Part shown: positions 4,315-29,434 of the stretch, in pieces | How positions within the stretch are numbered: position 1 is the first letter of the stretch | Layout of the letters: each line of letters begins with the position of its first letter | Source of the DNA: Patescibacteria group bacterium | GTDB taxonomy: Bacteria > Patescibacteriota > Patescibacteriia > JAHIZJ01 | Length of the DNA: 32,050 bases | Direction of reading: 5' to 3' | Assembly (NCBI GenBank): GCA_018814765.1 | Contig: JAHIZJ010000086.1 | Span: 1-32,050, forward strand | The notes under the pieces: generated by a model | Seen by the model: only the letters and a program-made list of their open reading frames with translations | The model's database searches: none | Told to the model about the DNA's origin: nothing | Program-made: the position numbers and the translations under genes

Positions 4315-5187
4315 TTATTGCTGACACTTAGGACAGTAATGACTCGATCGGCTACCCTGCCGAATTCTTTTTATTTTTGAGGTTTTACACCTCAAACATT
4401 GTTTGTTTTCTCTACCATAAACTTTTAGGAATTTTAGCATATCACCGGTACGTCCGTCACCCCGACGAAAATATTGCATCGTGGTACCGCTTTTTTTAAT
4501 TGCTAGCTTAAGTATTATTGGGATGTTTAGGTATATTTTCTTTAGCTCTTTCCTTGATAAGGACTTAATTCTTCTAGTAGGCCGAATGCCAGCTTTAAAA
4601 AGAACTTCATCAACGTATATGTTACCTAAGCCCACTACAGCTGTTTGGCTTAATAGTATTTGTTTTACTGATGAGTTTTTATGAGATGACAGCTTTTTTA
4701 AGAATATTTCAAAGGTGAATGATTTATCAAAAGGTTCTGGGCCCAGCTTTTTTTCAGTATAAAATTTTTCCAACGATTTATTAGCTATTATCGTCATATA
4801 GCCAAACTGCCGAACGTCATTGAAAAATAGATTTCTCCCGCCCCTAAACTTAATTGTTATATGTGTGTATTTGTTTGGTAAGTCATGAATATCATGATTT
4901 ATAGGATGGCCTCCTCCCCTATTAACATCTTTCGAAGATTGATATATTAGCTGACCAGACATCTTCAAATGTACAATCAGGGTATAACCATTGTCTAGTT
5001 TAAATAAAAGCATTTTTGCCCGTCTTCCAATTTGGACTACTTTACTTCCAATGGCTAACTGTCGAAACTTAAGCAAAGACAATTGTATCATTTTTTCTAA
5101 ACGTACATCCACGTCACAAATTACCTGGCCCTTTACATGCGGTCGTAGATCATTTACAACTGTTTCGACTTCTGGTAATTCGGGCAC
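4315..5187 (-). CDS. mutM: Formamidopyrimidine-DNA glycosylase
   Basis: MPELPEVETVV N-terminus (GTG start); C-terminal zinc finger CLRCKTSKIKRIRQGSRSSHYCPKCQ. Confidence 0.97.
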   Translation of the reverse strand: MPELPEVETVVNDLRPHVKGQVICDVDVRLEKMIQLSLLKFRQLAIGSKVVQIGRRAKMLLFKLDNGYTLIVHLKMSGQLIYQSSKDVNRGGGHPINHDIHDLPNKYTHITIKFRGGRNLFFNDVRQFGYMTIIANKSLEKFYTEKKLGPEPFDKSFTFEIFLKKLSSHKNSSVKQILLSQTAVVGLGNIYVDEVLFKAGIRPTRRIKSLSRKELKKIYLNIPIILKLAIKKSGTTMQYFRRGDGRTGDMLKFLKVYGRENKQCLRCKTSKIKRIRQGSRSSHYCPKCQQ

Positions 5188-5192
5188 TTGAT

Positions 5193-5230
5193 TTAATTAA
5201 GAATTAATAATTTAGAATTAACAATTAAAA
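5193..5230. repeat. AT-rich dispersed repeat, copy 1
   Basis: TTAATTAAGAATTAATAATTTAGAATTAACAATTAAAAA; inverted near-copy at 9611-9653. Confidence 0.6.
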
Positions 5231-27079: not shown

Positions 27080-27197
27080 GAGCTGCGTCTTTCTACTAGG
27101 CTTCAGCCGAGGGTTCCATGGGCTTTAGACCTGATAATTTATTAAAATCTATCCGACCTTTACTATCCTCGCCAACATCAATAACCGAGTAAACCAA

Positions 27198-27677
27198 TTA
27201 CCGTGCAAATTCTTCACCATATTTATCATCAATCTGCCGATAACTTGAAAATGGATTATCTCTCAATTCCTGAAAAGTATTTACCTCTTTATGCTTGAGT
27301 AGATTACCAATGATATATCCAGTTACTCTCCAATCCATATCATCCGAAGTTACCTGCAACGATTTCGTGCACTGCCACATCTCCTGATATTTCATTTTAA
27401 ATGACTTCCTATATTCATATGAAGTTCCACCATTAATTATCTGTTTGATTTTTGCTAAATCAGTATCATTCTTTGAATGACACTTTAAGTGATAGTGGTT
27501 TGATGCAATACTGAAAATAATATCCGATGCTGAGTAATTTTTTGTTGCCCTTTTGATCTGATTTAGCAGGATCTTTTTCTTCATACATTCACTAAAATAT
27601 GGAAAATACAACGAAGTCACTCCTGTAATGAAATATATCGTGTTATCAGGCCAATATCGTTTTGATTTATTTATCAT
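27198..27677 (-). mobile_element. REP-associated tyrosine transposase (RAYT / TnpA-REP, Y1 HUH superfamily)
   Basis: NTIYFITGVTSLYFPYF...LLNQIKRATKNYSASDIIFSIASNHYHLKCHSK: HUH-type HYH; WRVTGYIIGNLLKHKEVNTFQELRDNPFSSYRQ C-terminus typical of RAYTs. Confidence 0.85.
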
Positions 27678-27716
27678 ATATCCTCTTCCCAAATCTCCCT
27701 GACACTGTCTTTATAC

Positions 27717-27808
27717 CACAGAGCTAAAGCTCTATCAACCGTGAGCTAAAGCTTTTTAGAATTAAGTCATCTTTAAAACTAAAGCCTTTTAATAAAGCTC
27801 GGTAGAAT
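27717..27808. repeat. REP-like repeat copy 3 (partial/diverged)
   Basis: AGAGCTAAAGCTCTATCAACCGTGAGCTAAAGCTTTTTAGAATT. Confidence 0.6.
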
Positions 27809-27814
27809 AAAAAT

Positions 27815-27842
27815 CGGGGCACCAAGCAAAGCTCGGCGCCCC
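27815..27842 (-). terminator. Terminator of the structured RNA
   Basis: minus strand GGGGCGCCGAGC-TTT-GCTTGGTGCCCC-GATTTTTATTC; 12-bp stem including two G.U pairs. Confidence 0.85.
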
Positions 27843-27920
27843 CAGAAATCAAACGAAGCGTTAATTTAGGCATGTGCCACTACGTACTGCCAGTCTCCAT
27901 TCAGGAGAAGCACCCGGTTA

Positions 27921-27993
27921 AGGGTGGGTGGGATTAGAACCCAGCACGCATCAGGTTGCCAACCTGCTACACTACCAGCTATTGCACCTCCCC
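27921..27993 (-). other. Degenerate tRNA-like domain (anticodon-loop position reads GGC)
   Basis: GGGGAGGTGCAATAGCTGGTAGTGTAGCAGGTTGGCAACCTGATGCGTGCTGGGTTCTAATCCCACCCACCCT: U8, A14, G18G19, A21, U33, U54U55C56, A58, C61 in register, but mismatches in acceptor, D and T stems and no CCA. Confidence 0.35.
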
Positions 27994-28116
27994 TTGCCTT
28001 CTAGCTTTCGCCCGGAATCATGGCGAAGCTGTAGCTCGTTTGTAGATCGTCATGCTCGGACTAATCCGCCCGAGCGACCACACGATGATGCCATAGGCCT
28101 CCCTACGGCATTCACT

Positions 28117-28144
28117 ATTTTACACAATATAAATTATATGTCAA
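28117..28144 (-). promoter_or_regulatory. Sigma70-type promoter for the structured RNA
   Basis: minus strand TTGACA (28144-28139), 16-nt spacer, TAAAAT (28122-28117). Confidence 0.75.
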
Positions 28145-28207
28145 ATATAAAAAACCAAAGCTATTTTATGTACTGTGTTGCTTTGTTTTTATTGGTATTG
28201 TGTACTA

Positions 28208-28561
28208 TTATCCATCCAATCCATTCACTAGCTGCATCATTTCGTTGTAATGCTTTTTTATAATTTCAGGATCACGGAATTGCTTGGAGAATTCCTGTAA
28301 GACATTCATTACTTTTACAATTACCTCTTTAGTTGGTTTTTCAAAATCACCGTCCACCTTTTTAAAGGCTCGTTTTAACAGAATTTCAATGTTGGCTCGA
28401 GTCAGTTTATCCGCTGACATTTCATCCATCCCTTGAGTTACATCTTCTAATTCTTTAGCCTGGTCTTCTCGATGAGCTTCTAAAAAACATCGCATTAAAG
28501 CCCTGCGCACATCAATAGCATCATATTTTTTGTCTGTATCGACTCCGTAAATAATAGACAT
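28208..28561 (-). CDS. Conserved hypothetical helical protein
   Basis: ORF MSIIYGVDTDKKYDAIDVRRALMRCFLEAH... Confidence 0.7.
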   Translation of the reverse strand: MSIIYGVDTDKKYDAIDVRRALMRCFLEAHREDQAKELEDVTQGMDEMSADKLTRANIEILLKRAFKKVDGDFEKPTKEVIVKVMNVLQEFSKQFRDPEIIKKHYNEMMQLVNGLDG

Positions 28562-28620: not shown

Positions 28621-28697
28621 TGGTCGGGGTAGCCGGACTTGAACCGGCGACCTCAGCGTCCCGAACGCTGCGCGCTAGCCAACTGCGCCATACCCCG
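28621..28697 (-). tRNA. tRNA-Pro (anticodon CGG), CCA encoded
   Basis: CGGGGTATGGCGCAGTTGGCTAGCGCGCAGCGTTCGGGACGCTGAGGTCGCCGGTTCAAGTCCGGCTACCCCGACCA; complete cloverleaf. Confidence 0.96.
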
Positions 28698-28735: not shown

Positions 28736-28767
28736 GAGCCGTCAGTTTTCCAAAACAGACGGCTAAA
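28736..28767 (-). terminator. Rho-independent terminator of 28763-29434 gene
   Basis: AGCCGTCAGTTTTCCAAAACAGACGGCT hairpin. Confidence 0.7.
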
Positions 28768-29434
28768 AAAGTGGCTGAAAAGCATCAAGCAATGACTCCA
28801 CTGACTTAAATTCACTAGGCCTCTGTCCTCTCCGAACAAGTTTCAAATGATTCATCACCCGCCGCAATTGAACACTTTGAGTCCTATGCATCAGCTGACA
28901 AAAAGTAATAGCGCCCTTATGATGAGACATATAATAACGCGCAAACTCTAGATAAGAAAGAGCGAAAGAGAGGTTAGCTATGGCTAGTTCCAGTGATTGG
29001 CTAGGTGAACCATTTGTTCTAGTAATGGTTACATATGCAGCGTGTGCTAAGTATTCCCTAGCATATTTATAGTTTCTCAAGCTACGTTCTCTCAATGTCT
29101 CTATTGCTGAACTGTCTAATGAGTGGGTCCTTAGGAATTGCACATGTTCTACTACCGCAGTTGAATCACCCCATATCAGTTGGCCGGTCAGAACTGCTTC
29201 CGTTATAGCAGGATCAAAAATGCTCAATCCTGTCTCAAAATCCTGGCTGCTTATTTCAGTCATGTCCAGATGACCCACCGGTCCATGATATGCTTTGGGT
29301 TGAACACTATCTAGCACTACCAGCAAATCAATATCACTATCTGGTCTGCGTGATCCATAATGCCAGATAAATCTAGCCAAACCACTATGTGCCCCCAGTG
29401 AATTTTGTACTAAACGTAACAGTTCGCGTCTCAT
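28763..29434 (-). CDS. MNT-type nucleotidyltransferase with C-terminal helical, possibly HEPN-like, region
   Basis: HYGSRRPDSDIDLLVVLD (GSx..DxD); C-terminal LRNYKYAREYLAHAAYVTIT...LELAIANLSFALSYLEFARYYM; SD AGGAGGGACGACT. Confidence 0.7.
   Translation of the reverse strand: MRRELLRLVQNSLGAHSGLARFIWHYGSRRPDSDIDLLVVLDSVQPKAYHGPVGHLDMTEISSQDFETGLSIFDPAITEAVLTGQLIWGDSTAVVEHVQFLRTHSLDSSAIETLRERSLRNYKYAREYLAHAAYVTITRTNGSPSQSLELAIANLSFALSYLEFARYYMSHHKGAITFCQLMHRTQSVQLRRVMNHLKLVRRGQRPSEFKSVESLLDAFQPLF

Follow-up and report, generated by a model that had tools for sequence, protein, structure and literature searches.

YrlA, a bacterial Y RNA of 90-150 nt, binds Rsr (Ro60) through its 5′/3′ stem (PMC8394870). 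It is a stand-alone non-coding RNA, as is the RNA described here, and bears a tRNA-like module with a T-loop (PMC8394870). The present RNA differs in length (295-350 nt), and no conserved 5′/3′ closing stem was seen in it. Of the YrlA-type module, the T-loop and an acceptor-like pairing are partly present, and the D arm is not conserved. The TROVE protein (Ro60/Rsr, PF05731) was found in none of the three genomes of the family, and the idea of a Y RNA is therefore unsupported. A second comparison is with tmRNA (RF00023), which is likewise stable and combines an acceptor-like stem with a T-loop-like hairpin; the predicted fold of the homolog described below has a long helix in the anticodon position. 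The likeness to RNase P RNA (RF00010) is limited to size and stability.

The RNA lies in a window of 32,050 nt, by which we mean the whole stretch of DNA analysed; it is one contig (C58) of a 1.38 Mb Patescibacteria genome in 139 contigs. The initial annotation had suggested Rfam as a check. Rfam 15 at gathering scores gave a tRNA-Pro gene (28624-28697) as the sole match in the window, and no family reaches threshold at the RNA locus. A permissive scan of 551 nt returned the tRNA model at 25.0 bits, the remaining matches being due to chance. RF00023 and related tmRNA models show no match at the locus up to E 10, no tmRNA-type tag reading frame with an Ala-rich end occurs, and CCA is absent. 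The genuine tmRNA of this genome is located on contig C83 (91.4 bits, with CCA), and a tmRNA identity was rejected. An RNase P RNA identity was rejected likewise: neither RF00010 nor the other RNase P models match here, and all three family genomes carry RNase P RNA at a separate locus. The absence of tmRNA and RNase P signatures in the initial annotation thus agrees with both RNAs being accounted for at other loci. A literature search on non-coding RNAs of Patescibacteria/CPR returned no paper from the collection searched.

The RNA gene and its homolog

The minus strand very probably holds a stand-alone RNA gene that is conserved in a little-studied lineage. Its sigma-70-type promoter, TTGACA (28144-28139)-N16-TAAAAT (28122-28117), matches 11 of 12 positions, with no second promoter-like site within 1 kb and a predicted transcription start near 28110. 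The intrinsic terminator, GGGGCGCCGAGC-UUU-GCUUGGUGCCCC, spans 27842-27816 on the same strand and was found by terminator scan. It forms 12 pairs and is followed by a U-rich tail; the sequence after the stem reads GATTTTTATT. Between promoter and terminator lies a non-coding, structured RNA of ~295 nt. Shuffled sequences give 3.3 promoter and 1.0 terminator sites, and the real counts do not by themselves exceed these, so the weight of the two signals comes from their position and their conservation in the homolog. The fold z-score is -4.37 with the terminator and -2.82 without it, the RNA folding better than every dinucleotide shuffle. No ATG/GTG/TTG open reading frame is conserved between the two known copies on either strand. 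The promoter, the 12-bp terminator and the lack of a credible coding sequence, all named in the initial annotation, are thus borne out.

The same annotation regarded the RNA as an orphan, which no longer holds, as a syntenic homolog occurs in a second genus of the family. DNA similarity searches with BLAST against 94 relatives, and against 380 genomes from the phylum, returned only the window itself and chance matches of 20-30 nt. The BLASTN comparison with related genomes proposed earlier thus gave no homologous match, and the homolog came instead from a search with the neighbouring transposase. The transposase search pointed to position 56142 on contig C2 (JAQTMH010000002.1) of Patescibacteria group bacterium isolate STA_36 (G002), extracted as sequence L070. 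The order on the L070 minus strand is syntenic with the window: tRNA-Pro(CGG) at 6974-6900, promoter, RNA, terminator and a transposase remnant. The homolog promoter, TTGACA-N16-TATGAT at L070 6849-6822, has the same geometry, and the RNA is about 350 nt long with a fold z-score of -4.71. Its terminator, recognised by inspection as its loop exceeds the limit of the terminator scan, has the homologous stem GGGGC..ACCGAG/CUCGGU-GCCCC and a T run.

MAFFT alone shifts the core alignment by one base, and the two sequences of the first joint covariance model were each one base short. A second model, R2, was built from the window core alone to remove the circularity of the first joint model. R2 scores the G002 locus at 50.3 bits, with an E-value of 4.1e-11 (851 kb searched, including most of the third genome), and the second-best match has 16.7 bits. 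Since R2 was built from the window only, this is non-circular evidence of homology. The locus represents a new RNA family, anchored by synteny, with a second member and a covariance model that works.

The RNA is known so far from one Patescibacteria family only, and no existing RNA family model finds it. The R1 covariance model placed it in 2 of 381 relatives, both of this family. Among sub-threshold covariance-model matches in relatives (18-25 bits), all rejected, the two best-scoring are tRNA-Ser genes, another lies within a tRNA cluster and most of the rest lie inside open reading frames. A pattern scan of GTDB r220 gave 27 stretches, of which the G002 contig is the only true member. Phage and plasmid collections searched with both copies contained no match, and viral contigs gave 4 chance matches and 0, with no member. 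The genome of a third genus of the family (G001), read almost completely, contains neither the RNA nor tRNA-Pro(CGG) nor an orthologous neighbourhood. A 117-residue protein without a Pfam match is encoded between tRNA-Pro and the RNA (28208-28561, minus strand) and is absent from that place in the homolog. In two distant genomes of the class it has homologs (50% and 43% identity); used as a synteny guide, it led to these genomes, both of which lack the RNA.

Conserved helices and the tRNA-like stretch

The core of the RNA (27966-27891, minus strand) contains four hairpins common to both copies. The anticodon-like hairpin CAGG-UUGGCAA-CCUG (27966-27952) carries CAGGUUGGC, which is identical in the homolog. 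The T-loop-like hairpin CUGGG-UUCUAAU-CCCAC (27944-27928) corresponds to GGAGG-UUUAAAU-CCUCC, with two compensatory changes. Hairpin H5, CACCC-UUAACC-GGGUG (27926-27911), has become CUCCU-UUAACC-GGGAG, with an identical loop and one compensatory A-U to U-A change; it had rightly been noted initially as a possible alternative pairing, and it is real and conserved. H6, UCUCC-UGAAU-GGAGA (27908-27894), appears as UCCCG-CAAAU-CGGGA, again with two compensatory changes. In total, 5 of the 19 core pairs are changed on both sides with pairing kept. No core pair shows a compensatory double change when the partners are slid by 1-3 columns, and 18 of 500 shuffles reach the same core covariation, a frequency to be read with only two sequences in the comparison.

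Three further hairpins precede the core on the minus strand. P1, UGCCGUAGG/CCUAUGGCA (28110-28089), has a pair probability of about 1 and shares UGCC-UAG/CUA-GGCA with the homolog in a hand alignment. P2, GCUCGGGC/GUCCGAGC (28075-28054), has a probability of 0.95 and one compensatory change by hand alignment. P3, AGCU-UCGCC/GGCGA-A-AGCU (28030-28003), keeps its 3′ bulge and shows two compensatory changes by hand alignment; in the window its probability is 0.3-0.5 and it is not part of the minimum free energy (MFE) fold. When P1-P3, the core and the terminator are hand-aligned together, 53 of 55 pairs are formed in the window and 54 in the homolog, against 39.5 expected there from random placement of the same substitutions. 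All eight double changes among the 55 pairs are compatible with pairing. P1-P3 are weaker than the core: structure guided the hand alignment, and a window-only model of the 5′ domain does not find its counterpart significantly, the homolog scoring 9.8 bits, second to a match on the opposite strand. The stems that the initial annotation named are all present in the window; one of them, AUCGU/ACGAU, was not recognised in the homolog. Compensatory changes between two copies, five of them in the core, are a first sign of the covariation that it had proposed to look for. A discrete, promoter-driven and terminator-ended structured RNA outside Rfam is thereby supported, now with an independent homolog.

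The middle of the RNA does resemble a tRNA, as first described. ARAGORN calls a tRNA-Ala(GGC) at 27919-27994, and the stretch 27993-27920 on the minus strand, with GGC at the anticodon position, keeps U8, A14, G18G19, A21, U33, UUC and A58. The evidence for a tRNA is mixed: alongside the ARAGORN call, the Rfam tRNA model (RF00005) gives 25.0 bits, below its gathering score of 29, with E-values of 0.0067 in the permissive 551-nt scan and 0.004 over the whole genome. The alignment confirms the reported defects. In the acceptor there is one A5xA68 mismatch along with a G1.U72 pair, 2 of the 4 D-stem pairs form, a CxC interrupts the T stem, and the 3′ end reads CCACCCUUAACC with no CCA. Position 57 is U and not a purine. 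Unlike a tRNA, the stretch is embedded in a 295-nt transcript. The remaining tRNA genes of the genome score 53-79 bits and mostly encode CCA, and a canonical tRNA-Ala(GGC) of 66.4 bits is found at C8:36652 (L026). The best alignment score of the stretch to any tRNA of its own genome is 9 (tRNA-Cys), compared with 26-53 for most real tRNAs and their nearest neighbours, which excludes a recent copy of a tRNA of this genome.

In G002 the corresponding stretch is no tRNA. The tRNA model gives no match to it at a threshold as loose as E 5, and two additional hairpins take the place of the D arm and the anticodon arm; the likeness to tRNA seen in the window is therefore partly local. What the two copies share is the T-loop-like hairpin, CAGGUUGGC and the acceptor-like pairing, which is damaged in the window. 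A degenerate tRNA-like domain accordingly does not serve as the defining feature of the RNA. A first-look resemblance to tRNA can mislead, the conserved part here being different from the tRNA-looking part. Of the earlier proposal of a new RNA class or a tRNA-derived regulatory RNA, an unclassified structured RNA gene remains, with the tRNA reading only partly upheld. Separately, the same genome (G000) carries a degenerate tRNA-Val(TAC) copy of 25.7 bits at C102:11114-11211 (L038 about 5115-5212), between tRNA-Val and tRNA-Ala; the tmRNA that ARAGORN calls over it is spurious.

Two predicted folds and a 16S-complementary strand

H5 and the acceptor-like stem use the same 3′ strand and are mutually exclusive. 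The acceptor-like pairing is perfect in the homolog, where it and the T-loop stem have pair probabilities of about 1; in the window it contains an AxA mismatch and its probability is near 0. A forced fold with H5, the T-loop-like hairpin and H6 lies 1.4 kcal/mol above the MFE in the window and 4.3 kcal/mol in the homolog, and the forced acceptor form lies 7.0 and 0 kcal/mol above it. These energies and the conservation of H5 indicate that both folds are available in both copies, the choice between them resting on few changes as two sequences are known.

The 5′ strand of the acceptor-like stem, AGGGGAGGUG (27994-27985, minus strand), is complementary to the 3′ end of 16S rRNA. Its counterpart AAAGGAGGUGA stands at the homologous position. 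The 16S genes of both genomes end in GGATCACCTCCTTT, and the two strands pair with CACCUCCUUU. Ten contiguous pairs can form in the window and 11 in the homolog, G.U pairs allowed; shuffles show such complementarity at frequencies of 0.027 and 0.01. GGAGGUG is unchanged between the copies although its intramolecular partner has changed, and no conserved open reading frame follows the strand in either copy. On these three grounds, binding to the 30S subunit is proposed as the likeliest single mechanism.

Our best guess is a novel regulatory RNA specific to this lineage, which may be bistable and may bind 30S subunits. In the acceptor-like form, the strand that follows the T-loop-like hairpin on its 3′ side would pair with the 16S-complementary strand and hide it. 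Folding of the same 3′ strand into H5, with its UUAACC loop, would free it, and the freed strand could let the RNA, if expressed as predicted, bind 30S subunits. The bound RNA might then damp translation initiation. As a whole, a gene for a trans-acting structured RNA whose 16S-complementary strand is hidden or freed is our leading account, held tentatively and somewhat short of an even chance. The mechanism taken by itself is possible but doubtful: the predicted fold of the homolog has the strand paired along its whole length, which counts against the mechanism, and the conservation of the strand could serve intramolecular pairing alone. That the RNA is a bistable device which hides and exposes a near-full-length anti-Shine-Dalgarno-binding strand, giving a reduced-genome lineage a dedicated control of its ribosomes, is quite unlikely. 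If the complementarity is functional, the RNA would be a ribosome-directed regulator in cells with genomes of about 1.2-1.4 Mb.

The loops suggest another, rather unlikely role, that of a small RNA pairing with mRNAs through exposed UUAACC (H5) and UUGGC (anticodon-like hairpin), with the GGAGG strand acting only in the structure. UUAACC and CAGGUUGGC are identical in both copies while the surrounding stems have changed, and the promoter and terminator make the RNA stand alone. The loop identity may also reflect tertiary contacts or protein binding, however, and mutual GGUU/AACC pairing within the RNA would account for it too. Were the acceptor-like stem and T-loop to recruit RNase P, TruB, PNPase or EF-Tu in the manner of tmRNA or YrlA, the rest of the RNA serving as effector or tether, a functional T-loop module would add a route of tRNA mimicry besides tmRNA and Y RNA. 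The 25.0 bits in the window, the well-predicted acceptor-like and T-loop stems of the homolog and the retained A58 and T-loop UU are consistent with this. We consider it unlikely, given that the homolog is unmatched by the tRNA model, the window acceptor stem is broken and disfavoured by 7 kcal/mol, the T loop has U57 in the window and a C56-to-U change in the homolog, and both CCA and, in the three family genomes, a Ro60/TROVE protein are missing. That the stretch is a decayed, functionless tRNA gene within a longer transcript is barely credible. The tRNA-like positions are in register, a good tRNA-Ala(GGC) exists elsewhere and another degenerate tRNA copy occurs at C102:11114, but the stretch is unlike any tRNA of the genome, its counterpart in the homolog is no tRNA, and the other genus retains the promoter and the terminator and shows compensatory changes.

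The GGAGG-containing strand could also be read as a strong Shine-Dalgarno sequence in an mRNA for a small protein, translation starting at a codon other than AUG: AUA in the window and CUG in the homolog. By inspection, an open frame follows the AGGAGG-like strand in both copies through GGT TGG .. CCT, up to which the length difference is a multiple of three. The frames end differently, however, after about 38 and 25 codons, no ATG/GTG/TTG frame is conserved on either strand, and the differences alter amino acids and, by inspection, track base pairing rather than codon position, making a coding function very improbable. Equally improbable is that the RNA is a cis element or guide-like RNA belonging to the IS200/IS605-type transposase next to it (27198-27692). 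A transposase or its remnant does lie downstream of the RNA in both genomes, with 200 nt of its end 86% identical. Yet the genome of the window has several related transposase copies and one copy of the RNA, a terminator separates the RNA from the transposase gene, and in the homolog an intact RNA stands beside a transposase remnant that carries an internal stop.

Elsewhere in the window, a minus-strand gene at 28763-29434 encodes a protein that carries a nucleotidyltransferase-like GSRRPDSDIDLLVV motif and whose C-terminal half looks helical. It has no Pfam or PADLOC match and resembles an MNT-HEPN pair fused in one chain. The 86%-identical stretch (window 27091-27290, L070 6033-6232) comprises the end of the transposase gene and ~107 nt downstream; its identity is far above that of the RNA, and it is probably the end of a mobile element. 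Upstream of the transposase gene, at 27714-27765, repeated palindromes (GAGCTAAAGCT) perhaps represent transposon-end hairpins.
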